DNA of 64,000 nt, from assembly GCF_000003815.2 (NCBI RefSeq), contig NC_049980.1, positions 926,447 to 990,446 on the forward strand. Reading direction: 5' to 3'. Shown here piece after piece: positions 820-53,899 of the stretch. Position numbers and translations under genes: made by a program. Within the stretch, counting starts at the first letter, position 1. Every line of letters starts with the position of its first letter. The notes beneath the pieces are model-generated. The model was not told the origin of the DNA. It ran no database searches and was given only the letters and a program-made list of their open reading frames with translations. Origin of the DNA: Branchiostoma floridae. Lineage: Eukaryota > Chordata > Leptocardii > Amphioxiformes > Branchiostomatidae.

Positions 820-16700
<15,881 letters not shown>

Positions 16701-23150: not shown

Positions 23151-23298
23151 AAAGTTTATGCTGATAGATATGAAATACGTACACTAGGGCATGCTGTTGA
23201 ATTACTTTTGTCCGCTTTGCGTTTTTGTATTGTCTGTTATATCGTGCTTTTCGTTTTCAAAACAAATGTCTTCTTTTGTTCACAGTTGTTGTTCAACA

Positions 23299-25095
23299 AT
23301 GGCACTCATTCCAAGACTGATGCAGTACAACAGTCTCCGCAAGGTGATGCTAACGGCAGGCCGATCGATAACGCCTCCTAGCGGCAGCATCGCCCAGTGC
23401 AGGGAACGGTCATCGCTAGCTTCCCCGCTCATGAGATCCATGCTGGTCCTGAAGAATTCGCCTGCATGCCTTCAACGGTTTAGCGAGGCAGAAGCCGACT
23501 CCTACTTCTTGGATCTTGAAGATGGGATACCAAAAGACCAGCGAGACTCTGCTCTAAAGTTGTATGCCGAGACGCTAGAGAGCGGAATATTCCGCGGCCA
23601 TACTGTGTACGTGCGCCTCAGTGACGTCAGTGACGAAGCCAGACTACATAGAGAAGTAGACGCCCTGTGCCACCCGGACCTGACGGGCTTTATTTTACCT
23701 AAAATCAGTTCTTCTGATGACGTCAAGAAAACTGACGAAATCCTCGCCGAGTTGGAGAAGAAGAACGACCTGCTTCCCGGTCACTGCAAGATGATCCCCG
23801 TAATTGAGAATTTAGAGGGATTCTTTCACGCACCGACCATTGCAAAGGTAAGGCCTAGGGGAAATGTTGTCGTTTAGAGTACGGGCCTGAATGAATTAGG
23901 GTTGATAGGTAGAAATTCTCTTCTGTCGTAGCTACTTTAAATTTTAATTTCAGATTACAGCCGAAGATGTCCTACAATCATTTTGTAACACTGGTATTTT
24001 CGACACCATACAGAAATTATATACAGATACACTAGAAAGGTCGACATTTCCTTGGGAGCAAATACGGCATATTTAAATTAAATCCATCTTCATCCCCATG
24101 CGAAAATGTATTGTTCCATATACACCTGCGCGGATGAAGTGAGTAAGTCGTCCCGAGGTATTACATAGGGGCATGGCCAGTATTGAACCTGGGACCTACA
24201 CACCACACCGATGCATCCTCCTACGCACGGTCCCCAATGGCTAGCTAACTCCAAGCCTATTGGGGCCCTGCTATCTCATGCCCCACCAGCCGTTACTGTG
24301 ATTGTCACCACAAACCAGCTGTCAGCCAATCAGAGAATAGGCATTTCTTGGGCTTTCTGTTTACGAAAGCCATCTCGCAAAGGCCGCTCGGAAGCTGTCA
24401 GCCAATCATGTTACGTCTTACATAGCACCATCCTCCTACGCCCGATCCCCAACGGCTGACTGCCCACTTTTGATATAAGGGTAAGCTCATTAATATTTAT
24501 AAGCAGGGCGGCCAGGAACTGGTCTGAGTGCGTCAGATAGCAGAGGTGACCACAAGGAGTATCGACACGACTGTGGTCCCTCTGCGTAGGAGAATGCACC
24601 GATGCCATACAGATACAACTAAATGGATAACATTTTCAGGCATCCCCGCGTTTGGCAGGACTCTGCTGTGGAAACGCGGATTTTGCTGCGTGTTTCCAGC
24701 GACCACCTGGCAGCCCGATTGAACATTCCTTAGAGCTCCGAGTTCTACAATCAGCTAAAGCGGCGGGGATAACTGCACTAAACGCAACCTCCTACCTGGA
24801 CAACTTCCCCCGTCTTGAACGTGACGTCACGCGATATAAGACGCTCGGATTTGATGGTATCATACGTCATATATTTGTTACCGTCTTGAAAATGATGGTA
24901 TTTTTTTTGGTGTGTCTGCTTTAATCTCCAAGCAGATCCTACAGTGGTATGAGATACTTGATACGCCAATGAGAGTATCTGATCAAGCTTGCCACCGGGG
25001 CAGCCTTCGCTCCGTTGCCAGTGTGTCAAATACTTTATGCCGCCAAAGGATCTGCTTTTAGATTATTCTTATGCTTTGGTCTTGATTTGTTTGTT

Positions 25096-25144
<49 letters not shown>

Positions 25145-25854
25145 ACGTGTGTTGGGGTGTGCGTGTGTGTGTTGGTGTGTGTGTGTGTTTGCGTGCGCGT
25201 GTGTTTGCGTGTATTTGTGCACGACTGCATTTGGTTTAATGCATATTCAATAGTTAATGTGATCATATTCTTGTCAGCCTGGCGAAATCACTCATTCTTT
25301 TCAAACCTGAAACCGTTACACTTATCCCGGTCCAGCTCCATCGATGTCTGTATTTTCACAGGGGTTATAGTGCTTCATCCGTCGCTGGTGCCGTTTGTAA
25401 ACCAACTCTACACCCCTACACGGCAAGAGATAGACTGGGCCGAACAAGTCACGGCGGGAGTAAGAGTCTACCAGCGATCAGCCCAGGAATACAGACAGTT
25501 CATCGGGCCTCCTCATCTTCCCAGCGCCTCTCACATCCTGGAGACGCACGGTAAGATCAAGGTGTTGGAATCATCTGTAAGTAGAAATACCAAACCTAAT
25601 GAAGATATGGGCACCGTTAAGCCATTACAGCGGAAAGGCGGACTCTCAGCAAACTCCATAAAAGGAGGAGAATGGACCCCCGGTATCGTACCCGTGACCT
25701 TGGATTCGTCATGGCGTGCAGCCTGGAACTCGTCATTTCTCAACACTCGGAGGCTGAACAGTGATGATGTGGCGGCAAGGCAGATGGGTCTTCCGGGAAT
25801 CCAACCTCCTTTCCATCTACTGAAGACCTTGGCGATGTCTTTAGCTGTGGCAAA
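23299..25854 (+). CDS. fusion gene, lyase part (exons 1-3)
   Basis: Family landmarks in order: [10 protein letters not shown] (substrate-loop region), [12 protein letters not shown] (acidic metal/substrate motif, like LDCEDG in CLYBL), [26 protein letters not shown] (like PFVET), [11 protein letters not shown] (like FGGEDF, keeping the Asp), [20 protein letters not shown] then [14 protein letters not shown] (like KQVIHPNQ) and IDWAEQV. Exon 3 continues past the usual end of CLYBL through a polar linker ([15 protein letters not shown]) into the start of the hotdog region, so the fusion is encoded within one exon and is not an artefact of joining distant exons. Confidence 0.87.
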
Positions 25855-28800
25855 GTAAGGCTATTATTTTAAATGCCTTTACATGGGATAACCATTAAGC
25901 GTACTGGGACTGATTAATGTTTTTTTGCTGTATCTGTTATAGTGTCTTACGATAGCCTGATTCATAAATTGTCAGGTGTTATTCAGAATGAAGCAAAATA
26001 AAACCCTTACGATTCCGGAGACGTTTCGTTTATGAAAAGCATAATCTATATAAGGTCTATAAGAAGTCATAAAAGACATAGTCCGAATGCATATGAAATA
26101 CAAAAAAAAGTCTTACTAATAGACAGTTAACTTACAAATCTTATTTTACAATGATCCACTTAATGTACAATTTTCGTGGCAAGACTAAAATATTCTGAGT
26201 TATAAGAGCAAATGTCTGTAAGGATCAAACAATGGTGGCAAAGGTCACAAAATAGATTTGGCTCATATTTTGCACAGTGATAGTACTTGGTCCACAACCC
26301 CTCAAAATAGCTTTCTTTTAGATCAAAACTCCTTGTTGCCATGGTAACGGGCAAACAAAGTTTTCTGGCCATTTTTCCCAATTTTCGCATCTCAAAAACA
26401 CAGAAATCAGCATATTTTACGGCACTGTCTCGGCAACACCTTTAAACCTATCATCAAAACAAAACAAATCTAAATAGACCAACATTTTGGCTTTTTAAAA
26501 ATTGTTGTGAAATTTCCAAAGTCGTACATTTTCGTTCTTGGGCAGCCTGAAAACAGTGCAATGTTTCAAGCTTCAAAAAAATTTGATTTTTGGCCCAACT
26601 TTGTAACGCTATAAGTGCCAAGCTGGTAATTTTTTTGGCTTGAAATTTGTACCATATATAGATCATTAGAATACAGTCAAACCTGTCTATAGCGGCCACT
26701 CAAGGGACTGGTCAAAATTGGCCACTATAGAGAGGTGGCCACTATAGAGAATATGCTAATAATTAATTGACCACAAGCAATAACTTACACATGGTTTTAG
26801 TACCCACTGATCTTTATTCACATAATACAGTACTGTACATGTACTGCAATGAGTTTTACACTATATGTATTAAGAAAACAAAAGCTATAAAAAGTTTTAA
26901 TTGTTCTACAGTTGATATTGTCTGAAGAGACCGGTATCGTCATATTTCTTTGATATTTCGTCTTGTATCCTTTGATACTTCACCGTCCGTGTGTTTTTTT
27001 TTTTTTTTTTTTAAATTTTTTTATTGATTTTCAAAGAAACGAAACACATACAAACACATGCATGGCACGTAAATCGTAAACAGAAAGAGACATGTGTGAA
27101 CCTATAAAACTGATAAGTAAAACACAGTGAACTTAATAAGAAATGAAGTTCAAGAAATTATACCCCAATTACCGTTGCAGTAGTACATGAGACATATCAA
27201 ATTATATATAACCAATCAATTTACCCCATTTACCAATATGCTTTCTAGTTTTGTTTAGTCTTCTGGCGATGATATTTTCTAATTTAAAATAATATGACAT
27301 ATATGAAATAAATGATTCTAGGCTAAGATGTCTGTTGCGGTATTTGAAAATGAAATGTTTACCTAACAAAATAACAAAATTGGACAAAGCTGGAACACGA
27401 TCACTTATAATACCAAATAACACATTAAACAAAGTAAGATGTAAATAATTCCCAGTGTGCTTAAAATACCAATCCTGTACCTGTATCCAAAATTTTGTAA
27501 CAATCCTACAATCCCAAAATAAATGAATGTCTGATTCTTCCTCTTCTGTGCAATAACTGCAAAGTGATGTATCTATTACCCCCCACCTGTGCAATATCTT
27601 ATTGGTAGTTAGAAATTTAAATAGTAATTTGTATTGAAACATGCGTAGTTGGGAATCAATGGTAACTTTATAGGGTAAACTGTATACTATTTTCCATTGT
27701 ATGGGTGTGTTTAAGTATTCCCCCCACGAGTATTGGATCCGGTCAGAGATATCCCATAGCCTGGCGTCAGACATGAAAAATGAATACAAATGTTTATTAA
27801 TATTTGGAAATTGAAGCCAGTTTATGTTTCTACACGCCGGAACACAAACCCTTAACTCTGGTGACACCTGTCGTAGTAAATGTTTCCAATTGCTAGGAAT
27901 TGCTGATATGATTTGATTATACTTAAACTCTGCACATGTGTCCCCAAATTTTAATAGTAAGTCTTGGAAAGTTAAAAGCTTATTTTGTGAGTCTAAAATA
28001 TCATTTACAAAGACTACCCCCCTGTTGTATAGTGACATCAAAAAGCATGGTTTTCCGGATATGCGAATGTGTGAATTTAGGCAGATAGGCTGTTGTTTCA
28101 CTTCCTGTGCAGTCTCTGGAGGGCGTAGTTGAAACTTAAGCCACGCCTGTATTACATGCCTAAAGAATTGACTGATTTGTGCCTTTTCTTTCATAACTAT
28201 TTCGAAATCACGAAGTGTGAGTTGCGAAAAGGGAAATACATTAGTTGTAAATAAAACACTTGAGCAAAGTAGCAGTTTAGAGCAGAACCATTTATCATTA
28301 TGGTACAATTTGGGCACCCAAGAAGCCTTCAGGGTAAGATCAACAGCCTGCAAGTTCCTAAGTTTGAGACCGCCATATTCGTAGAGATTATAAACTGTTT
28401 TTCTTTTCACTCGTTCTGGTCCACCACTCCACAGAAACTTAAATATTTTTTTCTCAAACCTCTCGAAGAAAGAGGGAGGTGGAGAAGGAAGGGATTGAAA
28501 CAAGAAGATAAATTGCGACACTATCAGGGAATTAATTAGAGTAACCTTACCTAGAAGAGAAAGTAGTTTTCCTTTCCAGGGATTTAAAAGCTTATCTATC
28601 TTTGATTCTTTTCGGTCAAAATTCAAAGCAACAATATCTGATAGATACTTGGGGATATGGATTCCTAAAATGTCTACAGGGCCATCTGTCCACTGTAATG
28701 GTAGTAAGCAAGGAATAAAGAAGTTGGTGTCTCTTAACGAACCTATTCGTACTATCATACACTTATCAAAATTTGGCACTAAACCTGACAATGTTGAGAA

Positions 28801-31800
28801 CACTTCTATGTCTTTTACCAAGGCATACAGGGTACCAAGCTTTGGAACCAGGGGAAAATTGGAATCGTCGGCAAATTGTAAAAGTTTTGTTTCAAGACCA
28901 TATGTTGTTAAACCCTGAATTTCAATATTACTCCTAATTTTCATAGCTAGTAACTCCACACCTAAGACAAATAAGTAAGGCGAAATGGGACATCCTTGTC
29001 GGACTCCACGGTTAAGGGCAAACGACTCGGAAATATAACCATTATTGATGATTTTGCTAAAAGTGTCTTTATACAGAACTTTTATCCATGTAATAAATGA
29101 ATCACCAAAACCGAAATACTTCAAAACCTTAAAAATGAAATCATGTCGAATTTTATCGAAAGCTTTTTCAAAATCTGCACAAAATATCAAACCCGGCATT
29201 TCATTTCGGTCATAGTATTCTATGATTTCTAAAAGTCTCCGTATAGTGTCACTAATGGATCGCCCTTTCATAAAGCCAGTCTGATCATACGAAACAAGAG
29301 ATGAGATAACATTCTTCATTCGGAGGGCCAAACATTTAGACAGTATACGGTTATCACAATTTAATAAGGTCACCGGGCGCCAGTTTTTTATATGCGAAGG
29401 TTCTTTGTCTTTTCCCGTGGAATCCTGTTTAAGTAATAACGTGATGAGTCCAGTTTTCTGTGTGTCTGATAAACAACCAACCTGAAACGAATGGTTAAAG
29501 GAAGCCAACAGTGGTTGTTTTAAACTTTGAAAAAAGACCCTATAAAATTCTATGGGAAGGCCATCTAAACCGGGTGACTTACCAACAGAAAATGACTCAA
29601 TAGCCTTTTTTAGTTCAACTTCTGTAATAAACCCTTCACAGCTATCGCGCTGACTATCAAATAAACTTACTGGTGGAGGTTGCGGAAAGAAAGGCATAAA
29701 GACATCGCTGTCTAGAGACATAGGGGGGTCTTTGAAAGTGTACAGGTCGGCATAAAATTTTGTTTGTTGTCTTAAAATTTCTTCCGGATCAATTACCACT
29801 GAACTATCTGGCTTTACAAGTTTTGTCATATTCTTTCTTACATGTCCTCTACCATTTAAATTCATAAAAAATTTCGTACACTTTTCTCCTTGTTCCATCC
29901 ACTTGGCTCTTTTGTTCATTATCAGATTATTAGATTTTGTTTGATAAACTATTTCCAACTCCTGTTTTTTACCCTGTAACTGGTCAAAAATGTCGTCATC
30001 CGGAGATGAGTCTAGTTCTTCTTCAGCCTTTTGATCTCATCTATAAGCAATATTTCAGTATTTCTATTTTGTTTAAACTTCCAAGATGAAAACTTGATTA
30101 GGTGACCACGCACAGTGCACTTAAAGGCTTCCCATACGATGTGTGGGTTAGCTGATCCCTCATTAAAGAGGAAAAATTCTGTAATAAATTTTGAGGTTTC
30201 TTTCACAAACAGCTGGTCACTCAACAAATCACAATTAAGTCTCCAAAAGCCAGGCCCCTTTGGTGTAGTAGATAAGAGTAAAGAGATACTAATTAAGGAA
30301 TGATCCGATCTTAAGCTATCTTCAATTTTAACATTTTCTATAGAAGGGGTTAATGAAAAAGAAGTTAAAAAATAATCAATGCGACTGGCCTGAAGTCGGC
30401 GTCTCCATGTATAGCGGACGGCTGTTGGGTGGTGGTATCTGTAAATGTCGACTAAGTCAAGGTTGGCACAAAGGGAGTTGATGGCTTGAAGGCAGTTTGG
30501 ATGATAATTAGAAGTTTGGTGTCCAGCTCTGTCCAGGTTAGAATTCAATGCTGTGTTGAAATCCCCCACTATTATAGTATGTAAACCAGAAGATGTTAAA
30601 GACTGTACATTGTTTTCAAGATCGACAAAGAAAGATGGATTATCAGTATTTGGGGCATAAATATTTGCTAAAGAAAAACGGAATAGGTCAATAGTTAAAT
30701 CCAATAACATCCATCGTCCTGAATTATCGTTCTGAGTTTGATGGACAGTAAAGATTAAATTTTTCTTAAATAAAATAAGAACACCCCTGCTATTACTTAA
30801 ACCATGGTTAAATAGAATCGGACCCCCCCCAATCTGATTTCCATCTCTCCTCATTCAAAGGTGTAGAGTGGGATTCTTGCAGGCAATATATATCATAAGA
30901 CTTATCCTTTAGCCATGTAAAGATTTGGTTGCGTTTCCTGTGGTCGCCCAGACCGTTACAATTATAACTGCATACCTTAAGTTTTGGCAATACCATGAGA
31001 CCTTTGAAAAGTAATATAAGTTGTCAAATATTTTGATAAAAAGGGGCGTCCACAGGATGCAAAACATAAGTTGGGCAAAGCTAATGTACACAAAGTAGCA
31101 TAATTCTGTTGCAGGTAATTGGGGTCACTTAAACTACATAGCATAGGTAACACTTCAAAATTAGGTATAAAACACATGAAAACATAACACATCGTGCCAT
31201 GTAGTAATAACGAAAATAATAAATAACAGAACATTAGAACAAAACAAAATAAAGCTCAACGGAACACAAGAGTTACAAAGCTTGGTGGCCCTTCCATCTC
31301 GTTGGCTCCGTCAAAAGTATCGCATTTGTTAATTCCACGGAAAATTGTGAAGATAAGAAAATTGGACCAATTTTACACTTCAATATTATAGAATAGTAGC
31401 TCTGTTTCTGAAAGTGACGTTTTGTAAGCTAAATCACCTTTCTTCTGAAACTTCATTTTGAACTCACAACTATCAGTCATTAGTAAGAAAATTGGTCCAC
31501 TTCTCAAATGTACATAACGAAATCACCACTTTAGTGTAAATCAAACCGAACTCATATCAACGTACCGTGATCATCGTCTTAATATAATAAAGAAAAGTAA
31601 TTATGGGAATCGGTCCGATTCAAAAACTAAGAATAGCATAACATGATCACCACTTTGGCATAACTCAAGCAGAATAGGAAATCATAAACAAAATCCCATG
31701 ATCTCTGTCTTGGAGTAGAACAAAGTCAGAGCTCAAAACAAACAACATAAATATGGGAATCAGTCTGATTCAAAACTCAAAACCACATAACATAATCAAC

Positions 31801-34800
31801 ATTTTGGTAAGTGGAAACAAAAATAACATGATCATAAGTTTTCTATAATCCAACTAAGTCAGAAATCAAAATAACAGAATATAACATCTGGATATGAATG
31901 AACACAAGTAGGAGAATCGGGCCGATTCAGAACTCAAACAATACTGTAACAAAAGAAAAGAACAGGCAGCAACGGAATACACCGGCTCGGCTGTGGGTTA
32001 CGCAAGGTATGTTGACATTTCAAGTCAATTAAGTGCACGCTGATCAGCACGTGTTCAAACGAATGCTTGCACCTGTCAAGCCTGCAAGCCAATTCCAAAA
32101 TTTAATGCCGCCGCATGTTTCTTACTTCCTGTGACTTACAAACAAGACAGGAAGGTATTCTGATTCCTATATACTAATACTGTCTTCACATTCATAAAAA
32201 ACACACCAGTGCCTCAAAGGGATGAGATGTTCGTTTAATAATTGCAGTCACATTTTAAACAACATGTTCACCCTCATGTGTTCTTTGTAGATAGCATAAG
32301 GTCAATCGCATCGGCGCGTTTCTTCTCTTGACCGTTCACAAGTAACACTGCGTACGTTGCCTTAGGAGGCACCCAAATCGAAACCCTAGTATCAGTACCT
32401 TTGGCTTTTGCTGCTTCAGCGTCTCGATCGGGGACAAGGCTGGNNNNNNNNNNNNNNNNNNNNNNNNNNNNNNNNNNNNNNNNNNNNNNNNNNNNNNNNN
32501 NNNNNNNNNNNNNNNNNNNNNNNNNNNNNNNNNNNNNNNNNNNNNNNNNNNNNNNNNNNNNNNNNNNNNNNNNNNNNNNNNNNNNNNNNNNNNNNTGTAA
32601 CAATTTATTTAGAAATTTTTGTGATGTAAATTAACCTTAGCGATAGTGTATTAGAACGTAACTTTAACACAATTTACCTCCGTAATATAGGTGTCGTCTA
32701 TTGACCTTATATGACCTCGTTTGTCAGCGGGTATGGGTAGCACCAGTTGACGAAGTTTTGTTTCGAAAATAAGTCAAGGCGGTTTTAAATCCGGCGTAGG
32801 GTGACGATACGGCCGCTGTATATGGCCGAACGCGTGCCGAAACATAGATCAGCGGTCCGCGTGGCCGTAAACGGCAGTGTTTTTGTACCTGCGGGACCGG
32901 AAATCGTGTGGCCGTGGCCGCGTTGGACAGGTGGCCGCTAAGCCTATTTCTTAATCATTACAAATCCAAGGGACCGACAAAAAGTGGCCACTATGGGCAG
33001 GTGGCCGTTATGCAAAGGTGGCCGCTAATACAGGTTTGACTGTATCTATCAAATGCATTGTTGCAAAGTTTGGGGTCTTGTTTGGTTGTCACGTGACTGT
33101 CCCCTAAAGTAGGCCACTTTTTGTGTTTGGCGAAAATTGTGAACTTTAGCCATGTTCAACGCACGCTACGTGACGAAGTAAACAAGGATTCTTATTCAAC
33201 TTCTGATCAAATGTACATCTATGTATTGTCTATCAAATAAATGCTTGTAGAGTTTCGGGTCATGACGTTTAGTCACGTGGTTGTCCCTGAAAGTAGGCCA
33301 TTTTTTTGCATTTGACAAAAATTGTGAATTTTAGCCATGTTCAACGTACGCTACGTGACGAAGTAAACAAGGATTCTTATTTAACTTCTAGTCAAATGTA
33401 CATCTATGTATTGTCTATCATATGAATGCTTGCAAAGTTTCGGATCATGACGTTCAGTCACGTGGTTGTCCCTGAAAGTAGGCCATTATTTGCATTTGAC
33501 GAAAATTGTGAATTCTAGCTTTGATCAAAGTACGCTGGGTATCAAAGTGAACAAGAATTCTTATTCAACTTCAAGTCAAATGTACATCTAGGTATTGTCT
33601 ATCAGATGAATGCTTGCAGAGTTGCAGATCGTGACTTTTAGTCACGTGGTTGTCCCTGAAAGTAGGTCAAATTTTGCTTTTGGCCAGAAATCACCATATA
33701 GGGCTGTAGTTAAATCTGTCGAATTGGGGAACTGAAATACTTTACTGGCATGGCACTGACTCCGATCATGTGTAGCCCTTAACATTGTCTGTTGAATGAG
33801 TGTTAGTAAGGCTTGGGGTCGTCTTTCTTTGCGGTGCAGTTGCTCCCTAAAGTAGGGCAGATAGTTAGCTAAATGCTGTTAGGAGGTTCTGTTACTTTAG
33901 AGAAGATGCCTCTTGAACAGTTTCTTTCTTTTAACATTGTCAATGTCCAATGCATATCATATTGGTACTACAATGACCGATAATGGGCATACAGTGTTAA
34001 ATTAAAGCGATGACTCTGTTATAATTGTAAATATCAATTTTGATAATGTAACTAAGATGTCGTTTTAAATTCAGCTATGTTCTATAATGCGCTAAAATTC
34101 ACAATATTTGTTGAGCACATAAGGTGACCTGGCTTCAGGGACAACTATGTGACTAATTGTCATGACCCGAAACTCGACAAGCATTTATTCGAAGAAAGAA
34201 AATTAAGAATACAAAGATGTACATTTGACCAGAAGTTTAATCAGAATTCTTCTTAATTTCGTCACGTAGTGTAGCCTGGTATCCAGCTATATTATAGCTC
34301 CCGATCGCGAGTCTCTTCTGTCCTCTTCGCAAATGGCTCGTTCTCATTTAAATGTAAAAATGCTGTCGCCTGCTTTTGCGACTTGATTTGCAGCAAATTT
34401 TAGACAAAATCACAGGTTCCTTCATTTTTCCACAATCCCTGGAATGTTTTCCAAAAGATTCATTTTGGTTGATGGCTTGGAAGATTATCTTAGCCACGGG
34501 TGGAATTTCACCCCCGTAAAAAATGGTTGTCTCCTGATAACAAACGAAGAATTCAAGTAGTAGCCAAAAATGTAACAATTCAGTTCCCAGAATGATTGTT
34601 CGGTAGATGAAACCAGCTGAGCAGGCCCTTTGCCCGATAACGCCAGATCGGTACTGTCACTGATCTTGGAGGCTGTGTGAGGTGGGTTATTCCTGTTGCC
34701 AAATTCGGTAACAAACGTTACCACCACCAGTTTGATGGTTGCCAGTTGCCACTGTTATATTATCCACGTATAAGACAAGAAATGACCGTTTTTGTGACGC

Positions 34801-37800
34801 TGCACAGTTTTTCTGGCTTTCTAAAGAAGCAAGGAAGGATTGTTGACTGCCATTTGTACCCCACCTAAGGCCCCCTTTCCACTTGACGGCGCTCTCACCG
34901 CGCTCTCGCTGCGATGGAAAATTGGCCAGAGCGCCGTGAGAGCGCCGCGACGCCAGAAAAACTGCTCAAGTGGAATCACTCCGGCGACCCCAGCGCGCTC
35001 TCACCGCGCTCTTCCAAATTCGAGGTCGCAGAGAGAGCGCCGTGAGAGCGCCGTCCTAGTGGAAAGGGGGTATAACAAAATGTTGTACAGAAATGACTGT
35101 AACGAACGTTAGCATTGTTCGAAGCTTTCTAAGCTTTCTATTTGACCTGGTGTAAAAAAGCTGCCCACTTTTTAAGTGTCCCTAGGGACATCCTCTTATA
35201 CTTAAATGATGTAGTCAATCTGGCCATTATTTTCAATTCAATGAGAACGAGTGAAATATGTATCTGCGAAGAGGACAAAAGAGACTCGGGAACTATAATA
35301 CGGCTGGATACCAGGGTACACGTAGCGTACTTTGAAAATTCACAATTTTCGTCCAATGAAAAAAGTGGCCTACTTTCAAGGACAACCGCGTGACTTTACT
35401 TCATGATCTAATTTTCTACAAGTATTCATTTGACAGGCAATACATAGATTTACCTTTGGCAGGAAGTTGAATCAGAACTTTATTTTGCTTCGCAATCTAG
35501 CGTACGTTGAACATGGCTAAAGGTCACAATTTTTGTCAAATGCAAAAAAATGTCCTACTTTCAGGGACAACCACGTGACTTTACGTTATGATCCGAAACT
35601 CTACAAGCATTTATATGATAGACAATACATAGATGTACATTTGATCAGAAGTTGAATAAGAATCCTTGTTTACTTCGTCACGTAGCGTACGTTGAACATG
35701 GCTAAAATTCACAATTTTCGTCAATTGCAAAAAAATGGCCTACTTTCAGGGACAACCACGTGACTGAACGTCATGACCCGAAACTCTACAAGCAATTATT
35801 TGATAGGCAATACATAGATCCACATTTGATAAGAAGTTGGTTTAGAAATATATTTTACTTCTTCACGTAGCGTACTTTAAACATGGCTAAAGTTCACAAT
35901 TTTCGCCAAACACAAAAAAGTGGCCTACTTTAGGGGACAGTCACGTGACAACCAAACAAGACCCCAAACTTTGCAACAATGCATTTGATAGATATTCTAA
36001 TGATCTATATATGGTACAAATTTCAAGCCAAAAAAATTACCAGCTTGGCACTTATAGCGTTACAAAGTTGGGCCAAAAATCAAATTTTTTTGAAGCTTGA
36101 AACATTGCACTGTTTTCAGGCTGCCCAAGAACGAAAATGTACGACTTTGGAAATTTCACAACAATTTTTAAAAAGCCAAAATGTTGGTCTATTTATATCT
36201 TGTTTTGTTTTGATGATAGGTTTAAAGGTGTTGCCGAGACAGTGCCGTAAAATATGCTGATTTCTGTGTTTTTGAGATGCGAAAATTGGGAAAAATGGCC
36301 AGAAAACTTTGTTTGCCCGTTACCATGGCAACAAGGAGTTTTGATCTAAAAGAAAGCTATTTTGAGGGGTTGTGGACCAAGTACTATCACTGTGCAAAAT
36401 ATGAGCCAAATCTATTTTTTGACCTTTGCCACCATTGTTTGATCCTTACAGACATTTGCTCATAAGATCTTTGTATTATTGACATTGAGATGTGCATTTT
36501 ATTACATCATTTTATATCCAAGACTAAAATATCCTGAGTTATAAGATCTTTGTATTATTGACATTGAGATGTGCATTTCATTACATCATTTTATATCCAA
36601 GACATTTAAAAACAACGCATATACAATTCACACTATGGTTCCCAAAATGTTCGGAGGTGCCAATAAATGGACTAGCAGGGCTCTACGGGTTTGTATGATA
36701 CATTGAAGTCCTTTTGTCATTCCCTGACTATTTTTATCCAATAGATCTAGATAGCCTACCATACAAAGAAATGATCATAAAATTGACTACGCATTTTCCT
36801 AATCTTACATTGAGAACATTCCGATGAGCTTACGACTCCCTACAACCTCAGGTCGTCTGAAACAGCTCGATTCCATTTGGGGACTTACAACGCTGTACAA
36901 CTGAGACCGGTGGCCGAAGGAGACACCATCAGAGCTTACTTCTCTCTGGACAGCGTGGCTGAGGCAGGAAGCAGCGGCAGATACTCCGTAGTGACCAGCT
37001 CTCACGTCCTCGTCAATCAGCTTGACCAAGCCGTGTTCCGGGTGGCGAAGAAGACCATGTACCCAAGGCTGATGACTGGGGGGTTCCACTTTGCTAACAA
37101 GGTAGATTTTGAATTACAGTAGAAACCTCATTTGTCAGCTTATTTCGTGCAATTATCCGGGTGGTACAAAAATGCGAAATTACCTAGCTGGACTGCACCG
37201 GTTTGGAATGCTGGGATTTTGAATTGTTGTTCAGCTGACGAAATCAAAGCGAACTAAAATGTTTGTGTACATTTTTGAATGTATTTCTTGCGAAAAAATG
37301 ATTGACTGTACTTAGACTGTTTTTTTTTTTTTAAATTTACAGACGAATTTATCTTTCCCTTTTAAACGATCATTCTTATTGCATCTCCACAGGCAAAGAC
37401 CAAGGCCCCAGCAGACTCCGAACTTCGCAGTCACATTGTTCAGAACGCAGCAGTGCTTAGAGACGGACAAATGATGGAAAGCCTGCCTTTGATGCCGACT
37501 CAGGTGCGACTTTCTATTTTTCAAACATAATTACGCCAACTTAACCACGCATGCTGGGGCACAATTGACTTTGATAACTCACAATCATCAAATTTACTTC
37601 AAATTTGAAAACAGCGCCCTCAAAAAAGGTCGACGTTAGGAACTCTAGGGCTGATCTTGAAAACAATGTTGACGGTTTGTGGGTGATCATTAATGTTTAG
37701 CCTTATAACCTAAAATCATCTTCTTTCACGGGCTGCTATATTTTCATTCTTAATTAGTGATAGAATTCTACAGTAATAGTTGATTTTGTAATTAGAAAAT

Positions 37801-40800
37801 AACACCCGCTTCTGGGGTTGACTGCCAGTTCGAATGAATGCTTGACGTGTATCTATTTAATACTTTATACTTCATGCTTGGAATTCTGAGCTTGGAATGA
37901 ATGTGTTACGTATAGCTGTTTTATCATTCGTTAACCCTATCCAGATTGGGCTTTTTGGGCCTTCCCTGGACTGGGGGGGGGGGCTCATTCGGCCCCCTTC
38001 GTATTTTCAAAACAGCTTACTGTATGATCCCCAAATTTGCAATGTTTGTTGTGCTTGTCGAGTTTTATAATTCCTGAAATTTTTATATCATTATGACGTA
38101 ATATGACGTAATTATGACGTCATTAATTGATTTTTTTTGGCTGAAACTTGGAATTTCCATAATACCTAAATTTCTCACTCAAAAAGTTACCAATAAAGGT
38201 TTCTTATCAAAATTTAAGTGTTATAAGACTTCTGTTGTCAAAAGATGACGCAACGACGTCAAAATGACGTCATAGAATAACGTCATATGTAGTTTAGCTA
38301 TCCGCCATCTTGGATTATCAACCTTAAATGTCCTTAAGATACCTTAAGATACAATTTTTTCAACATATAACGCTAAAACGCCATGAAAATGGATCGAAAA
38401 CGTTCATATGAATGTTTTCTTTAAGAAAATACAAAGTATTGATGAAATCCGAGTGAAAATCAGCTGGTTATACTTTTCATCATGATATTGTCGGCCATCT
38501 TGGATTTTGACCAATTACGTCATCTCATTAGCATAATTTATGAATATTGAATTATAAATGTTCAACTAAGATGTGTTAGATATTAAAGATATATGAAAAG
38601 AAGTTTAGTCTAGCAAGAAAATCTTAATATCCCATTGTTTAAACCAAAATCAGTGATTTTTGTAAAATTTGCCTTTCAGAAACCCGTTGCCATGGCAACA
38701 CGAAAAATTATAAACTTATTCCCTTTTTTGTAAATTGTTGCCAACAATATTCTAGGTTAAGTCACCAAGTTTGGTTGCTCTAACACAAGCCGTTTGGGAG
38801 CTATAGGACGTCAAAGTTGGCGCAGGCACTTCAAGACCCCCCCCCCCCTCCGTCTGGATAGGGTTAAGTGTAGCTATTTCCAGGAGTTTTGCTTCCATTG
38901 AATTTTGATATGTTATCACACTCTCTACATAGTGGAGTTTTATACGTCTGCATCTTATTCACAGCTATACGTCCATCGAGTGGTCAAGTCATTTAGGCCG
39001 GGCGAATCCATGGGACTCTCCAACCTGATACGAGTTACCAATGCTCATCACTTTAACACAAAAAAGGTGTGTTCATATACTTCATCACGTGTAGACTAAT
39101 ACTATAATATTATATAAGTAATATTGTCTAGATTGATTTTGGCATCGTGGTAGCCAGTATGCTATCGTTACATTCCGACCCGAGGCCCGACCGAGCAGTT
39201 TTGGGGAACGGGAAGTATGATACAAACGACAACCAAAGTCCAAAAACGTACCAAAAAGAATAGGGCCTACGTTATGCATATTCATTAACACAATATTTCA
39301 TTTTTCGTATCCGCGAATATCCGGGAGATGTGATCCTACCGTTATCAAATTTCGATTTTTTTAAAAGTCTTTCATCTTTACTGTTTTGTGCCTTTATTAG
39401 TTCTCTTCTGAAGCAATTGTGGTGCCCGGTCCCTTCGTTCTGGCGGCAACTGTCCACAACGTAGCTGATGAGTTCGGTGACATCCTGTATGAAGAGGTGG
39501 TGGAGACTTCTAATGTCAACCCAGTGAACCAGGTAGAAAACATCTCCCGTAATGTCACTGCTGTAATTATTCAAAATAATTAGTAATATTGCAACTTCTT
39601 GTAAATCATGTATGCCTACTCCAAATCATACTTTCCAGAAATTGACTTGTTTTTACAGAACAACCTAAACATTTGTCAATTTGCCAGTTTCAGTCAACCT
39701 TCCGAATAAATTCCGATTTTAATTTTATAACGATATCTTTCATTGTACGTTCACGTTCTATTGGGCTTGGTACAGGCATACAGATACTATTCATAGAAAT
39801 TAAAACATATTCAATACGTAATAGAAAAATAGACACTTATTTTTGTCTACTTTTTTCAGTTTGACAAGAAACGTAATTATTACTTTACCTTCTGCAGGGT
39901 TTAAGCTCTGCCTGTTATATCATGCGTGTGTCGGCATCTATGCCTTAACATTGCTTCTCCTCATGCATAATACGACAATATCATTTTGTACTGATGATGA
40001 ATGACTTTATCTTCGTCTCTATTTTACAGAAGGATATGATTGGATCTGTCAGCTTTATCCACAGCGTTCAGCAACTGATAGAGAATCCCGGTACGTTGCT
40101 TGAATAATCATAGGTTTGGCTATCAAATACACAACATGTTTGCCCTAACTGTACCTCAGCAGCATGCCTTTGCCTTCATAAAAGGTAGACCCTTTTTGAG
40201 ACCTTAAGGTGGCATCTCGCTGCACTTTGGGCACCGATGCGATACTGGGTTCGTTCACTGCGGCATGGACTGTCGTGTTATTTTCGCCGATAATAAATAG
40301 TTAATTTTTAAAAAATATTTTAGATATTGTGTTATACCCAAAATTATCACTCAGAAGACAACAAAATACACTATACGTATTCATAAGAAAATTCGTTCTT
40401 TATGTCTAAAAATTCGTTGAGTAAGCTTTAGAACCCCGCAGTGCCGCACCGGTGCCCCAAGTGCAGTGAGATACCAACTTTAGATGCAGTGGGCTGTTGT
40501 TAACTGTATAGTGAAAGTTATTTAGCCGGCTTTTACCCCCCCCCCCCTTTGGCTCAGGTACCCATGTTTAACTAAGGCCTTAGTCATGTACATCGTACAA
40601 TTTACCGGTATGGGGATTTCAGGCGCGGTAATAACGCCGTACGTCTGGGAAAATCGGGCGCAATATTGAATTTAAGTATATCAAGCCATGGTCACAAACA
40701 GGCGTTTCATCACATTGTTTGGGGACCTAACAATAAACGTTTATTAGTAAATCAACACTTTCTCACAAAATAATCTACAAATAATCTACAATAATCAAGT

Positions 40801-42457
40801 ACAACAATCTTGACTAATGGTAAAAAAGTTAAAGAAAAAAAATGACAACTTCGGGTTCGAGCCGAGAAGCATCACGAATACACCTAAAGTGAGGGGGGTC
40901 TGTTATATATGTTTAGACAGTAACATAAAAGGCGACGACCGGTACCACCCGTTTATAGGAATACGAGACGGAAAGTAGCATAGATGCCATAACTTAGATC
41001 AAGCAAAGGCGTATGCGGCTCTCCGGCCACTATGTGTGACACCCTGAGCTAGTGGCCAGTGAGCTACTCTTATGGGAACCAGTCCAGGGTAAAAGAAACC
41101 CTGGCAGGCGGAGAACTGCCTTTATAGACTCACTCATGCTCGACATACTGAGCAGCATACCTAAACTAAGATCTCGGCCCCGGCGTTCAACATAAAATCT
41201 GACAGGACGGCCCGGACGCTCACGATGTGTCCGCGGCCGTTTCTGACGGCAATTGACGCGTCCAGACGGTTTGAAACGCTATCAGATGATGTTCGACGCC
41301 GACGTCCTGGCAATTTCGGACGCTTGAATTTTCACATAGGCACTGATGGTGGAGTGCAATATTCCTGCGAAGACATCTGATATTCTCGACTGACTGACTG
41401 ACTGACATTATGTTGAAATAAGAGAGTTCTGATGGGTTGTAGGGTAACGACGAAGGAAGTATGGTGTGAACGTTTCATCTCAGGCCAGTTCTTTCCTAAC
41501 TATACCGTGTCCCGTATGTTTTTCTGTACCAGATCTAGAGGAGGTGACCGTACGTACCCTGGGGATCAAGAACATGGACGTCGATGAGTTGATGGAGAGA
41601 GAAGTTCCGGTTAGACTTTTCTCCGGAACCAACGTGAGAGGCGCAGACTATGAGAAGGTAAAATCTTATCTACTGTTTAAACTATGACGTGATACTTTAA
41701 TAGTGCGCAATGTGCACAAGACAATTCGGCCATGTTGATTTGACGATATAGATGACAAACTCTGGGAACTCCAAAACTGTTTGTCAAAAAAGTCACAATG
41801 AAATCTAAGTGGTCAGCATGGTTAAACAAATGACTAACCACAAAGTATCGTAAACCGCATTTTAGTTTTGACAACTTCTACTTTGACTCTGGAATTGACT
41901 TCGGCACTGAACGTCGCAGTAGTGTCCGTTTTCCGATATTTACTTTACAATTTACGGCATATATTTGCAGCTTTTATGTGCTATTTACAGTATGGTTGAA
42001 AATATTTTCGACGAACGACTGCTGATGCTATCCATGTAAATGAAAACAAGCTATTGTGCTCTATTGATTACTTGGTAAGTGTTTTATGACTGCTGCCACG
42101 TCACTCAAATGAAAATGAGTAGCTAACTTCTCAGAGCTTCTAACTGGAGTTCGGCTGCATGGCGGCGAGAAACAGAATTTGAATCTCTAAGAAAGATGTT
42201 TGATAGGCATCAAAACATAAGCAGGTGAGAGGCAGTATGGTTGTGTTAAAAGAAAACTCCAATACCCTATGATCTACTAACCCAATGAATTCATTTTCGA
42301 AAGGATATATAGTTTTTCTTTTCTCTCCCAGATCTGTATGGAGGAGTTCCCCCTGCTCTACAGAAGGATTGCTGCCCAGGTTCTGTGGAAGTTTCTCCGT
42401 CTGCGGCCTTCTGCAGCCAAAGAGGTTCCTGTGGGGATTCAGCCAGAATTCTCCTGA
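23299..42457 (+). CDS. CitE/CLYBL-like lyase fused to MaoC-type double-hotdog hydratase
   Basis: Predicted two-domain acyl-CoA enzyme of about 721 residues. Exons: 23299-23847, 24640-24856, 25362-25854, 36852-37101, 37393-37503, 38965-39066, 39401-39532, 40030-40090, 41533-41657, 42332-42457 (stop TGA). All junction phases agree (0, 1, 2, 0, 0, 0, 0, 1, 0). Residues 1-45 are Arg/Ser-rich and could be a mitochondrial presequence. Residues about 45-330 match the HpcH/citrate-lyase-beta family; about 370-690 resemble two MaoC hotdog units. The start ATG lies 13 nt after an acceptor-like TTTCACAG, so a 5' UTR exon is likely. Inference: CoA-thioester hydration coupled to C-C cleavage (itaconyl-/mesaconyl-CoA or a related substrate). 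No symbol is given because CLYBL itself lacks the second half. The third intron holds an 11 kb nested transposon. Confidence 0.85.
24030..24140 (+). repeat. dispersed repeat (ACTAGAAAGG family), copy 1
   Basis: ACTAGAAAGGTCGACATTT, TTGGGAGCAAATAC and ACACCTGCGC recur in order at 44418-44520; a weaker relative begins near 45379. Class unknown; intronic here. Confidence 0.5.
24141..24207 (-). repeat. tRNA-derived SINE fragment
   Basis: On the minus strand GGTCCCAGGTTCAATACTGG (B box) is followed by CCATGCCCC, like the head of the SINE at 95-265. It is cut at its 5' side by the inverted-repeat element starting at 24208. Confidence 0.45.
24208..24606. mobile_element. inverted-repeat element with promoter-like core
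   Basis: TIRs CCGATGCATCCTCCTACGCA and, inverted, GGTGCATTCTCCTACGCAG. The core has GCTGTCAGCCAATCAGAGAA (CCAAT motif), a second CAGCCAATCA, GATATAAGGGTAAGCTCATT and ATAAGCAGGGCGG, shared with the element at 54149-54378. It ends 33 bp before exon 2 of the fusion gene. Confidence 0.65.
25085..25225 (+). repeat. (GT)n microsatellite
   Basis: A long TG/GT dinucleotide run with TTTG and GCGT interruptions, in the second intron of the fusion gene. Apparent long open frames across it come from the repeat. Confidence 0.9.
27202..29958 (-). CDS. LINE reverse transcriptase ORF (918 codons)
   Basis: Retrotransposon replication enzyme that copies the element RNA at a nicked target. RT landmarks in order: [67 protein letters not shown] and the catalytic FADD box, then a C-terminal CSYC...HLFWDC zinc-knuckle-like motif. 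These match L1/Tx1-type LINEs. The frame is open over the whole RT, suggesting recent activity, but it is separated from the endonuclease by a frame break upstream. Confidence 0.92.
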   Translation of the reverse strand: MEIVYQTKSNNLIMNKRAKWMEQGEKCTKFFMNLNGRGHVRKNMTKLVKPDSSVVIDPEEILRQQTKFYADLYTFKDPPMSLDSDVFMPFFPQPPPVSLFDSQRDSCEGFITEVELKKAIESFSVGKSPGLDGLPIEFYRVFFQSLKQPLLASFNHSFQVGCLSDTQKTGLITLLLKQDSTGKDKEPSHIKNWRPVTLLNCDNRILSKCLALRMKNVISSLVSYDQTGFMKGRSISDTIRRLLEIIEYYDRNEMPGLIFCADFEKAFDKIRHDFIFKVLKYFGFGDSFITWIKVLYKDTFSKIINNGYISESFALNRGVRQGCPISPYLFVLGVELLAMKIRSNIEIQGLTTYGLETKLLQFADDSNFPLVPKLGTLYALVKDIEVFSTLSGLVPNFDKCMIVRIGSLRDTNFFIPCLLPLQWTDGPVDILGIHIPKYLSDIVALNFDRKESKIDKLLNPWKGKLLSLLGKVTLINSLIVSQFIFLFQSLPSPPPSFFERFEKKIFKFLWSGGPERVKRKTVYNLYEYGGLKLRNLQAVDLTLKASWVPKLYHNDKWFCSKLLLCSSVLFTTNVFPFSQLTLRDFEIVMKEKAQISQFFRHVIQAWLKFQLRPPETAQEVKQQPICLNSHIRISGKPCFLMSLYNRGVVFVNDILDSQNKLLTFQDLLLKFGDTCAEFKYNQIISAIPSNWKHLLRQVSPELRVCVPACRNINWLQFPNINKHLYSFFMSDARLWDISDRIQYSWGEYLNTPIQWKIVYSLPYKVTIDSQLRMFQYKLLFKFLTTNKILHRWGVIDTSLCSYCTEEEESDIHLFWDCRIVTKFWIQVQDWYFKHTGNYLHLTLFNVLFGIISDRVPALSNFVILLGKHFIFKYRNRHLSLESFISYMSYYFKLENIIARRLNKTRKHIGKWGKLIGYI
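30012..30996 (-). pseudogene. LINE AP-endonuclease domain, frameshifted
   Basis: Two overlapping frames together give an APE-like endonuclease, the nuclease that nicks target DNA. The first (30996 down to about 30840) has SYNCNGLG and CLQESH; the second (30854 to 30012) has RGVLILF, NIYAPN, IIVGDFN, RIDYF and SDHS, the expected catalytic order. The shift falls at a C/G homopolymer near 30830, and it could be a real mutation or a sequencing error. Confidence 0.88.
31350..31930 (-). repeat. LINE 5' tandem units
   Basis: GGGAATCGGTCCGATTCAAA-like words recur at about 31357, 31486, 31605, 31755 and 31912 with CATGATCACCACTTTGG-like words between them, i.e. units of 120-157 bp. Tandem 5' monomers act as promoters in some L1 families; that role here is inferred. 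Confidence 0.6.
32274..32443 (-). other. coding-looking fragment of unknown origin next to gap
   Basis: On the minus strand a frame runs out of the gap ([37 protein letters not shown]) to a stop at 32274-32276. Its composition looks protein-coding, and it lies inside the pogo-like element. It may be remnant transposase, LINE ORF1 or captured host sequence; I cannot tell. Confidence 0.35.
32444..32595. other. assembly gap (152 N)
   Basis: Gap inside the pogo-like element; it truncates the coding-looking fragment on the minus strand. Its length differs from the 100-N placeholders, so it may be an estimated size. Confidence 0.95.
34275..35315. mobile_element. element inserted near centre of the palindrome
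   Basis: Ends CCTGGTATCCAGC and GCTGGATACCAGG are inverted; the match continues with ATTATAG, GAGTCTCTT, GTCCTCTTCGCA and GTTCTCAT. It splits a 183-bp unit of the right arm: the unit runs to 34273 and resumes at 35316 (CGTAGCGTACTTTG). No transposase was recognised. A smaller MITE lies inside at 34868-35070. Confidence 0.65.
34868..35070. mobile_element. CCCCCTTTCCA MITE, copy 2
   Basis: Left CCCCCTTTCCACTTGACGGC, right inverted CCCCCTTTCCACTAGGACGG, with TA at 34866-34867 and 35071-35072. The interior is dominated by GGCGCTCTCACCGCGCTC and its mirror. Same family as 14787-14991. Confidence 0.8.
36462..36605 (+). repeat. tandem duplication at the palindrome's right flank
   Basis: ATAAGATCTTTGTATTATTG followed by ACATTGAGATGTGCATTT appears at 36462 and again at about 36541, separated by AAGACTAAAATATCCTGAG. 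The left flank of the palindrome (26181-26205) carries the same AAGACTAAAATAT(T)CTGAG, which fixes the insertion site. Confidence 0.75.
36852..42457 (+). CDS. fusion gene, double-hotdog MaoC-like part (exons 4-10)
   Basis: Exon 3 end plus exon 4 give the first hotdog-like unit: [25 protein letters not shown], then [20 protein letters not shown] and [16 protein letters not shown]. The second unit, exons 38965-41657, has the MaoC-like signature NAHHFN followed by [10 protein letters not shown], then a strand [10 protein letters not shown] before it. The first unit lacks the Asp/His hydratase dyad at the equivalent place, whereas the second keeps a histidine, the usual arrangement in eukaryotic two-hotdog hydratases. 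The C-terminus ends GIQPEFS and is not an SKL-type peroxisomal signal. Confidence 0.7.
37935..38863. mobile_element. TTAA-target non-autonomous element
   Basis: TTAA at 37931-37934 and 38864-38867 flank ends CCCTATCCAGATTGG and, inverted, CCCTATCCAGACGG. TTAA duplication with CCCT ends fits piggyBac-like or Kolobok-like elements. The interior is AT-rich with a repeated TGACGTCAT/TGACGTAAT motif. Part of its right end resembles 4895-5075. It lies in an intron of the fusion gene. Confidence 0.8.
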
Positions 42458-46999: not shown

Positions 47000-48480
47000 T
47001 GAGCCCGGTCTGGACATTTACTTGCTCGTTTTGTGGTATGGTGTTGTGTTGAGACATGTTTGATATCTGTAGTCTAGGCCTGTTGCAGGGCTTGCAGAGT
47101 CATGCTTCTGCCGTACGGAAGGACTTCACGTTTTTGCAAATTTTTTCCGGTTGACTGTCACATAGTTTCATTTTCACGTTTTGTCTGTTGCCTGTTTGCT
47201 GAGTGTTTTGTGAACGCTTTGTAAACGTTGTATGTAGGTCCGACGGGAGAGAGCTACCTTTAATATTTAGAATGTTTCTTTTCAGTTTTAGTATATACGC
47301 TCGCATCCTCTGTCGAATTTTGCTGTGGCCACCTTTTGACGACGCTGATTAGTGGTGCTGTTTAGGAGTTTGCTATTTGTGTGTTTTTCTCGTTTTGTGA
47401 AAGTGTTAACAGGATGCTAGAGCTGTCGCTGTCGAGGAGATGCAACATGGCTACCCTCTGAGTCACTAGGTGGGATAATAGAATCCGTTGCCATCCTCTA
47501 CCTTGGAAGGCAAGGGAGGCTTTTGTCTGTTTTTGAGGAGAGTTACAGACCGAGATATTCACCATTTTCTTGTCATTTTCTGATTTTTGTGTATATTCTA
47601 GTGATACGCAGACACGTGGTTTGAAACCCCGGACAAAGAGGCAAGATGGATACTCTCACAGTATCGCCGTGACTGAAATCACAATCTGCATCCATCCTCT
47701 ACCAGGGAATTCTACGAACGCCTCCCTACAGTGTGGAGGTCCTTTACAGATCTAGAGCTTCGCCATTTTCTTGTCATTTTCTTTAAATCTTTATATTTAT
47801 TTCGTATGTATGGTTTTATGCAGGATTTTAGGATAGCACTGTCATGGCATCGGGACTCACTATGGCTACCATTTTCGGAGTTCTTTTCAGGAATTAAAAC
47901 CCGCCGCCATCCTCCTCGTGGGCGATGTAGTAATGCAGACTGCCAGCGTTTCTAGAGCGTGGTTTTTGTTACGTACATGTTATTGTTATACGTTTTCGTT
48001 TGTCAAGTTTAACTTTTTGGATTGCGTGGGTGTTGCCCGTACGTAAGGTGATTGTCGTGTGCGTGGCCTATTTTTACCAAGCTTAGCGTTTGGTTGTTGA
48101 GCATGTATGTACGGGGAGTACGCATGGCCTAGGACTGTTCATGTTATCGTGGCTTGCCCACCTTTGAGCGCTAGGCGGGGGGATGTCGAGTGCGTATGGT
48201 GTGGATATTGTTACGGCTGGATTTTGTGTGTAATTTCGTCAGCGGTATCGATAATTGTGTTTTGTTTTCCGCATAGTTCTCAGGAACCGGGACGTGCTGG
48301 TTCACGCGTGGCGTTCTCCCCCACCCGTAACGACCCTTGTAAGAAGTTTCGGACTTCAGGGATCTTCAGATGCGGCAGGTACGACAAAAGATGTAGCAGC
48401 GAGTGGTGGCGCAAGAACAGCAGCCTGTCAGCCTCTCTTAGGCCCCCTCACCCTCCTCGCCATTCCGGACACTTAAGTGC
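47000..48480. other. unassigned region with degenerate ~200-bp repeats
   Basis: CCATTTTCTTGTCATTTTCT occurs at about 47563 and 47763, and CATCCTCTACC(TT/AG)GG at about 47493 and 47693, so a 200-bp unit is repeated once with divergence, and more weakly at 47880. No coding exon was recognised. Confidence 0.4.
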
Positions 48481-48509
48481 CACAAGGAAAGGACAGCTCA
48501 TGAAGACGG

Positions 48510-49125
48510 TACAGCCCGGGCAGGCACCGGCGAGTGCCGCGGGTAGAGCTCACGAAGATGGTAAGGCCCGGGCAGGCACCGGCGAGTGTCGCGGGTAGAG
48601 CTCACGAACGACGAAGATGGTAAGGCCCGGGCAGGCACCGGCGAGTGTCGCGGGTAGAGCTCACGAACGACGAAGATGGTAAGGCCCGGGCAGGCACCGG
48701 CGAGTGTCGCGGGTAGAGCTCACGAAGATGGTAAGACCCGGGCAGGCACCGGCGAGTGTCGCGGGTAGAGCTCACGAAGATGGCCATGGTAAGACCCGGG
48801 CAGGCACCGGCGAGTGTCGCGGGTAGGGCTCACGAAGATGGTAAGACCCGGGCAGGCACCGGCGAGTGTCGCGGGTAGAGCTCACGAAGATGGTAAGACC
48901 CGGGCAGGCACCGGCGAGTGTCGAGGGTAGAGCTCACGAAGATGGTAAGACCCGGGCAGGCACCGGCGAGTGTCGCGGGTAGAGCTCGCGAAGATGGTAA
49001 GACCCGGGCAGGCACCGGCGAGTGTCGCGGGTAGAGCTCGCGAAGATGGTAAGACCCGGGCAGGCACCGGCGAGTGTCGCGGGTAGAGCTCACGAAAATT
49101 GGAAGGCTCGGGCAGGCACAGAGGG
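48510..49125 (+). repeat. 52-bp minisatellite
   Basis: About eleven nearly identical units of GGGCAGGCACCGGCGAGTG followed by TCGCGGGTAGAGCTCACGAA and GATGGTAAGACCC, at a 52-bp step with some 58-59 bp variants carrying a 6-7 bp insert (ACGAACG). More diverged units follow at about 49113 and 49262. Because 52 is not a multiple of three, the open frames in it are not coding. Confidence 0.92.
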
Positions 49126-49732
49126 GTGCAGCGGGAAGATATTGATCTCAGTTCAGTTCCGTTAATACTCAGAGAAGTGGCACCAGCGTCTTCACATTGA
49201 ACTCAACCAAATTTAACCCCCCCCCCCCCCCCCCTGAGCTTACGAAGATTGAAATACCCCGGCAGGCACAGGGAAGTGCCGCAGAAGAATATGGAGCTCA
49301 CGGTGGATGTTTTAGGGAGGAAAACGTACTCGTACTTTGCCGGAAACGTTTTGAAGACCGAAAGCCAGAAATGATATCGACATGAGATCGAGAAGGCATT
49401 GAATTCACAAAATTGTGTTGTTGTATAAGGACGGTCGCACTAAATAGGTACCAAGGGCAAGGCATATTACACTGGAAGTGCGAATTTTCTAGGCAGTACG
49501 CAAGACACACATTTCGTAACCACGTGTGGGACAATATTCTTAAGAAGTAAAAAAAAAAAAAACAACGTTACATCAATTCATCGTTAATTGATAACTGGTT
49601 GTGTTATGGATGTATTACACTTCTTTACGTTTGGGACCGCATTGTAAATATGTGCATCAGAGTTGTCTGTACATATGCAAATACTTTTCGTTTTGTGACC
49701 GCATCTGAACTGTGAGCAGCAACACCTGTCCT

Positions 49733-49845
49733 GCAGTACAATGTGAACCAGTCAGAATTGCCCTGAAGAAGGTGACAGACGGTCACCGAAACGTCGGTGA
49801 GAATAAAGCATCGGTTGTGTAAAAAGAGTCTCTTTATTCACATTT
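49733..49845 (+). mobile_element. CGAAACGT-family half element
   Basis: CTGAAGAAGGTGACAGACGG, TCACCGAAACGTCGGTGAG and AATAAAGCATCGGTTGTG resemble one arm of the hairpins at 53445-53777 and 6501-6729. The opposite arm is absent. Confidence 0.5.
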
Positions 49846-49849
49846 CGTA

Positions 49850-51950: not shown

Positions 51951-52011
51951 GTTAAGGGGTTCAAAGGGAAAAGGAAGGGCTCAATAGCCAGAGATGGCAA
52001 AGGCGGAAGAC

Positions 52012-53777: not shown

Positions 53778-53899
53778 ACGAAGAAGACTGTTCGATCATA
53801 CATTTTAGACTGACGTCATAGTTTTACAAGAATGACCAACGCTTGCAACGATGTTTTTTGTAGTTTCTCTCGTTTCACCGACACAACGTGAAGCTAGCA

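Follow-up and report, generated by a model that had tools for sequence, protein, structure and literature searches.

A two-copy gene of Branchiostoma floridae joins a CitE-like lyase half to a hotdog region related to mesaconyl-CoA hydratase

A fused lyase and hotdog gene in amphioxus

A 64,000-nt stretch of the Branchiostoma floridae genome (G000:C2:926447-990446, here called the window) carries a ten-exon gene in which a CitE-like lyase half is followed by a region of the MaoC hotdog type. We propose that this is an animal gene under selection, with two paralogues, and that it would descend from a CitE-like acyl-coenzyme A (CoA) lyase fused to a MaoC-type hydratase like mesaconyl-CoA hydratase (Mch). 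The sequences point to a divergent CoA-ester-handling protein in which classical catalysis may be altered or lost, and we put the probability of this reading at about one half. The lyase barrel retains residues for Mg2+ and for the carbonyl site, and probably still binds a short keto- or hydroxy-acid/CoA ester together with Mg2+. The lid Asp, which would cap the active site of the neighbouring subunit, is replaced by Gly, and the hydratase Asn is apparently Val or Ala, so that a classical cycle of hydration plus cleavage would not be expected. The protein may work as a CoA-ester-binding protein or as an enzyme of altered chemistry, perhaps as a mitochondrial trimer, beside intact CLYBL-type lyases.

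Gene structure, second copy and selection

The ten exons of the window gene were spliced to 2166 nt, which comprise 721 codons and a TGA stop. The frame has no internal stops, the phases are consistent, and nine of nine introns are GT...AG. This 721-codon frame had been described in a sequence-only reading of the window and was reproduced exactly. The same reading had noted that the exon at 25362-25854 runs from the last part of the lyase into the beginning of the hotdog part, and this held in both copies. An intron within the 5' untranslated region (UTR), ending at the AG before the ATG, is likely from the sequence. The features of the gene are as follows (window positions).

23286..23298, + strand: probable end of the 5' UTR; acceptor-like AG just 5' of the ATG; the second copy has one at a similar position
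23299..23847, + strand: exon 1, residues 1-183; carries the N-terminal extension, the beginning of the lyase barrel, E74, D75, R106 and the Mg ligand E170
24640..24856, + strand: exon 2, lyase barrel with the Mg ligand D197
25362..25854, + strand: exon 3, completes the lyase barrel and carries the lid (G304 replacing Asp), the linker and the start of hotdog 1
25855..36851, + strand: intron 3, 10,997 nt, repeat-rich, including a non-long terminal repeat (non-LTR) retrotransposon; the second copy has 377 nt here
36852..37101, + strand: exon 4, remainder of hotdog 1, resembling the first hotdog of Mch
37393..37503, + strand: exon 5, bridge from hotdog 1 to the C-terminal part
38965..39066, + strand: exon 6, C-terminal part; V564 and H569 stand opposite Asn226 and His231 of Mch in a forced alignment
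39401..39532, + strand: exon 7, C-terminal part with the candidate central helix of a putative hotdog 2
40030..40090, + strand: exon 8, C-terminal part
41533..41657, + strand: exon 9, C-terminal part
42332..42457, + strand: exon 10, C-terminus and TGA stop

The B. floridae genome (513,431,437 bases in 431 contigs) was searched with the exons, and 19 matches were obtained, ten in the window and nine at C2:3488132-3498147 on the minus strand. The latter belong to a second fused gene on the same contig, 2.5 Mb away (G000:C2:3488129-3498147, minus strand, 724 amino acids), whose exon 5 was recovered by tblastn with an E of 3.6e-4. Each copy has ten exons in identical order and phases, and 540 of 719 aligned residues (75%) are identical. 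The ratio of nonsynonymous to synonymous divergence (dN/dS) between the copies was 0.31 over the whole length (NG86, 0.156/0.504; YN00, 0.155/0.484). By part, the ratio ranged from 0.32 to 0.37 for the lyase, from 0.20 to 0.26 for the linker, from 0.26 to 0.33 for hotdog 1 and from 0.28 to 0.29 for the remainder. Such purifying selection indicates that the protein has some function.

We considered that two separate genes had been misjoined over the 11-kb intron, or that the locus is a decayed pseudogene. A long, repeat-rich intron 3 with an internal assembly gap speaks for such an error. However, a single exon 3 covers both parts, and the second copy has the identical junction with an intron 3 of only 377 nt, which places exons 3 and 4 in a single gene. 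Moreover, the frames are open in both copies and the dN/dS is low. This explanation is thus highly improbable. Since both copies share the exon 3 junction, the fusion is a property of the gene and not of a single locus. A gene prediction artefact or joined genes were ruled out by the bridging exon and the second copy. On the predicted exon structure, the fusion of lyase and MaoC-type parts belongs to one intact gene, which confirms the earlier observation. A recent bacterial insertion was also unsupported, because the gene has nine introns and its best bacterial lyase matches reach only ~30-33% identity.

Exon 3 was unusually similar between the copies, with 89.0% nucleotide identity, and dS was 0.26-0.41 in the linker and hotdog 1 compared to 0.53-0.59 in the lyase and the C-terminal part. 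Gene conversion or additional constraint may account for the similarity of exon 3. Within intron 3, a non-LTR retrotransposon lies on the minus strand, with RVT_1 at 27202-30036 (2.2e-31) and an endonuclease frame at 30012-30854. It is flanked by long inverted arms at 26203-26467 and 36200-36464 (99%) and at 26456-26673 and 35993-36210 (97%). The window contains four runs of N, one of which, 32444-32595, is the assembly gap within this intron.

The lyase half lacks the lid aspartate

The Pfam family HpcH_HpaI matched the fused protein with 67.5 bits (cut-off 25). Matches in the PDB included malyl-CoA lyases and citrate lyase or citrate lyase beta-like chains, including 6aq4 of M. tuberculosis and CLYBL 5vxc; 6AQ4 and 5VXO are named in a passage of PMC6689899. 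The NCBIfam equivalog cut-offs for RipC and CitE were missed by far (81.3 versus 375 and 101.5 versus 443.4 bits, respectively). These comparisons place the lyase half among the CitE-like proteins, as a divergent member.

According to sections of PMC3832036, CitE-like enzymes use a Glu-Asp pair, an Arg, a Glu and an Asp as ligands of Mg, and a further Asp on a C-terminal lid that extends into the neighbouring subunit. The lid Asp is described there as conserved throughout the superfamily, save for a Glu in malyl-CoA thioesterases. These positions were compared across 25 aligned rows, which represent 23 different sequences. Besides the fused copies, the rows comprised nine plasmid-borne bacterial or archaeal lyases, two CLYBL-type sequences of B. 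floridae contig C12, which are approximate exon strings, and 12 rows from match lists. A genome-by-genome search of 398 Pseudomonadota genomes (at most two candidates scored per genome, matches listed at E 1e-25 or better) gave 21 matches in 19 genomes, and none of these matches extends beyond model position 332 of 725. Eight of the 12 rows, those given as loci, were from these 21 matches, and four, every fourth, were from another 15 loci.

Both fused copies keep five of the six active-site positions, namely E74, D75, R106, E170 and D197. The D197 column is Asp in every aligned row except L034, which carries an insertion adjoining the site. At the sixth position, the lid Asp is replaced by Gly (G304 in the window copy) in both fused copies, whereas all 23 other rows (21 different sequences) have Asp. 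A further candidate end exon of C12 copy A with Tyr at the lid site (GKVIYKP) was excluded from this count. The lid motif reads R-Q-F-I-G in the fused copies compared to G-x-M-[ILV]-D in the other rows. The lid hairpin is not evidently shortened, since 43 residues separate the conserved His-Pro from the lid site in the fused copies, within the range of the other rows (41-49).

In the tree, which used the approximate C12 strings and was built without vertebrate CLYBL, the fused pair stood on its own long branch of length 2.59, away from both the C12 genes and the sampled bacterial groups. Thus the fused protein did not group with the CLYBL-type C12 genes in this tree. The match to CLYBL 5vxc had an E of 3e-80 for C12 copy B and 1.1e-10 for the fused protein. 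The two CLYBL-type genes lie in tandem (L045 and L046, G000:C12:7568614-7581702), and each has an end exon with the lid Asp.

The hotdog region is related to Mch

The lyase half is followed by ~160 residues with homology to the first hotdog of Mch. The alignment starts near the Mch start and has 32-33% identity. In profile-profile comparison, hotdog 1 gave 94.9% against Mch and 97.2% against RipB/Ich-like proteins. The C4-type mesaconyl-CoA hydratase (Meh, named as in the annotation) was rejected as the nearest hotdog kin, as it gave 0.7% in a profile comparison. The hotdog half was matched in 33 of the 398 Pseudomonadota genomes, every time within the hotdog 1 region.

The score for Pfam PF19315 (MC_hydratase) was 13.4-15.1 bits, below the gathering cut-off of 26.5. 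A PF19315 search of the B. floridae genome gave zero matches and missed the window gene itself, and is thus too insensitive to count. RipB_Ich was missing from the six NCBIfam families that the fused protein matched at E 1 or better. A two-sequence profile of the hotdog half gave only weak rows against the PDB (best E 0.52), two of which were MaoC-like and the others unrelated.

The sequence-only reading had assigned a MaoC-type double hotdog. The first hotdog stood in the profile comparison; for a second one in the last ~215 residues, no stand-alone sequence test gave support. This part fits the second hotdog of Mch only by forced full-length alignment, and when hotdog 1 was compared with the putative hotdog 2, 35 to 235 of 1000 shuffles scored equally high. 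From the protein sequences, we infer that the last ~215 residues may descend from the second hotdog of Mch. The same forced alignment was used to compare nine ligand or catalytic positions of Mch. On this alignment, Ser and His are retained, Arg is conservatively replaced by Lys, and the remaining six positions differ from Mch. Among the six, the catalytic Asn226 is V564 in the window copy and Ala in the second copy. His231 is kept as H569, Tyr248 is Val, and Lys113 of the CoA site is Ala or Glu.

Bacterial counterparts are neighbouring genes

The same domain order was looked for in bacteria, as had been suggested earlier. A fused counterpart was found neither in the plasmid records nor among the two best candidates of each of the 398 genomes. 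In the plasmid search 355 records matched and none reached 80% query coverage; the top match (62%) consisted of two neighbouring genes. One 799-residue open frame with Mch (L119) had no lyase-like stretch visible by eye, a domain search not having been run on it.

The earlier claim of a bacterial parallel, a lyase with an Mch- or RipB-type hydratase, was borne out in the form of neighbouring genes in several bacteria. Separate hotdog and lyase matches fell into abutting genes with the hotdog first in four genomes (G039, G163, G339 and G369), and a fifth (G398) has adjacent genes for a lyase and then Mch. A plasmid-borne lyase gene adjoins a RipB gene, and other plasmid lyase genes adjoin, or are one gene from, double-hotdog hydratases of a different family. 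These neighbours support the descent of the fusion from a pair of enzymes acting in sequence. In the plasmid clusters L036, L039 and L040, a double hotdog of the mesaconyl-C4-CoA hydratase kind was seen near a CoA ester lyase, and a gene for a CaiB/BaiF CoA-transferase was also close by. One gene separates hydratase and lyase in L036, while in L039 the lyase precedes the hydratase, the order of the fusion.

Predicted activity of the fused protein

Since the Mg ligands are kept and the lid base is lost, ester binding is likelier than classical cleavage. Likewise, classical hydration is doubtful because the hydratase Asn is probably lost. The sequence-only reading had suggested that the fused chain could hydrate itaconyl-CoA or mesaconyl-CoA and cleave the product. 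That it does so by the known mechanisms was not supported, given the lid Gly in both copies and the six of nine changed Mch positions (forced alignment). We infer the loss of classical activity, together with hotdog 2 and its residues, the oligomer, the location and the substrate. The normal lid spacing in the fused copies slightly lowers the odds of altered or lost classical catalysis and slightly raises those of an active bifunctional enzyme and of one active half.

An active bifunctional enzyme would hydrate itaconyl-CoA or mesaconyl-CoA with its hotdog part and cleave the product with its barrel, substitute residues standing in for the missing ones. The two halves do match enzymes that act in sequence and are neighbours in bacteria (the plasmid case, G039, G163, G339, G369 and G398). 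The Mg ligands and the Arg are retained, the lid spacing is normal, and MmgE/PrpD-type and CoA_transf_3 matches occur in the same genome. However, both copies have Gly for the lid Asp, and the forced alignment replaces the catalytic Asn by Val or Ala, the Tyr by Val and the CoA Lys by Ala or Glu. In addition, residue 564 differs between the copies. We therefore regard a bifunctional enzyme as unlikely on the residues compared.

Less probable still is that one half only is active, for example a barrel without lid base serving as a thioesterase or as an aldolase with another acceptor, the hotdog half being a binding or assembly module. The hotdog site looks more altered (two of nine positions kept, forced alignment) than the barrel site (five of six), and malyl-CoA thioesterases also deviate at the lid position, as stated in part of PMC3832036. 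Their residue is Glu, however, and not Gly. Selection is similar on both halves, which speaks for this arrangement.

A divergent CoA-ester-handling protein thus remains our preferred reading. As for its assembly, malyl-CoA lyases are given in a portion of PMC3832036 as dimers of trimers in which the lid of one subunit lies over the next, and the Mch of PMC10164722 is described there as a trimer. A fused trimer would therefore be geometrically easy. More tentatively, a chordate lineage may have fused a lyase with an Mch-type hydratase and then rebuilt or silenced both sites under selection on the whole chain, giving a sensor or chaperone for Mg/dicarboxylyl-CoA, or an enzyme whose chemistry is foreign to both parent families. 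If both sites were indeed rebuilt or silenced under selection, an animal CoA-ester protein of a new kind would have arisen.

Pathway context and location

The B. floridae genome has four MmgE/PrpD matches on C5, consistent with a single gene, CoA_transf_3 matches on C2 and C10, and the two CLYBL-type genes on C12. MmgE/PrpD is the family of cis-aconitate decarboxylase, among other enzymes. On these matches, itaconate or mesaconate chemistry is possible in the animal, and the fused protein is not tied to it. A mitochondrial location, as suggested earlier, agrees with the composition of the N-terminus (no acidic and five or six basic residues in the first 35); its hydrophobic moment, in turn, was no better than that of shuffles and lends no support.

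Searches of the open-licence literature in PubMed Central found no paper pairing CLYBL with amphioxus, or any two of HpcH, MaoC and amphioxus. None joined three of itaconate, ACOD1, Branchiostoma and amphioxus, and no animal fusion was evident among the titles listed. A 2025 tracing paper (PMC12460153) considers that itaconyl-CoA might undergo hydration, followed by cleavage through CLYBL, and states that the enzymes of the pathway still need identifying. The disposal of itaconyl-CoA and related C4-C5 acyl-CoAs in animals is incompletely known, and a chain that is both hydratase-like and lyase-like is a direct candidate. Its altered residues make either outcome on activity informative.

Other features of the window

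The region 48001-52000 is GC-rich (0.528 at 48001-50000) and has a strong GC skew (0.156 and 0.183), unlike the remaining window. An open frame at 11468-11857 resembles by eye the end of a tyrosine kinase domain. Another at 53864-54292, with a hydrophilic stretch and one hydrophobic segment, has by eye the appearance of a first exon encoding a single-pass membrane protein. Neither had a Pfam match at E 0.01. In the window (1-64000), ARAGORN found no transfer RNA and no Rfam family reached its gathering threshold.

Comparison with known systems

The fused protein shares with CitE-like lyases (malyl-CoA lyase, RipC and CLYBL) the TIM-barrel family, the Glu-Asp pair, the Arg and both Mg ligands. 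In contrast to these enzymes, it has Gly for the lid Asp, scores below the equivalog cut-offs and lies on a long separate branch. With Mch, or beta-methylmalyl-CoA dehydratase (MeaC; PDB 8hgn and 4e3e; PF19315), it has in common hotdog 1, a fitting length and order of the remaining part, and the candidate His (forced alignment). It differs from Mch in being joined to a lyase, in its score below the Pfam cut-off, in the altered equivalents of Asn226, Tyr248 and Lys113 (forced alignment) and in a hotdog 2 that is putative. RipB is a single hotdog encoded by a separate gene, and the fused protein had no RipB match listed in NCBIfam at E 1 or better. The operon of RipB/Ich with a neighbouring lyase nevertheless places the same pair of functions side by side, and hotdog 1 of the fused protein resembles the RipB-like proteins.
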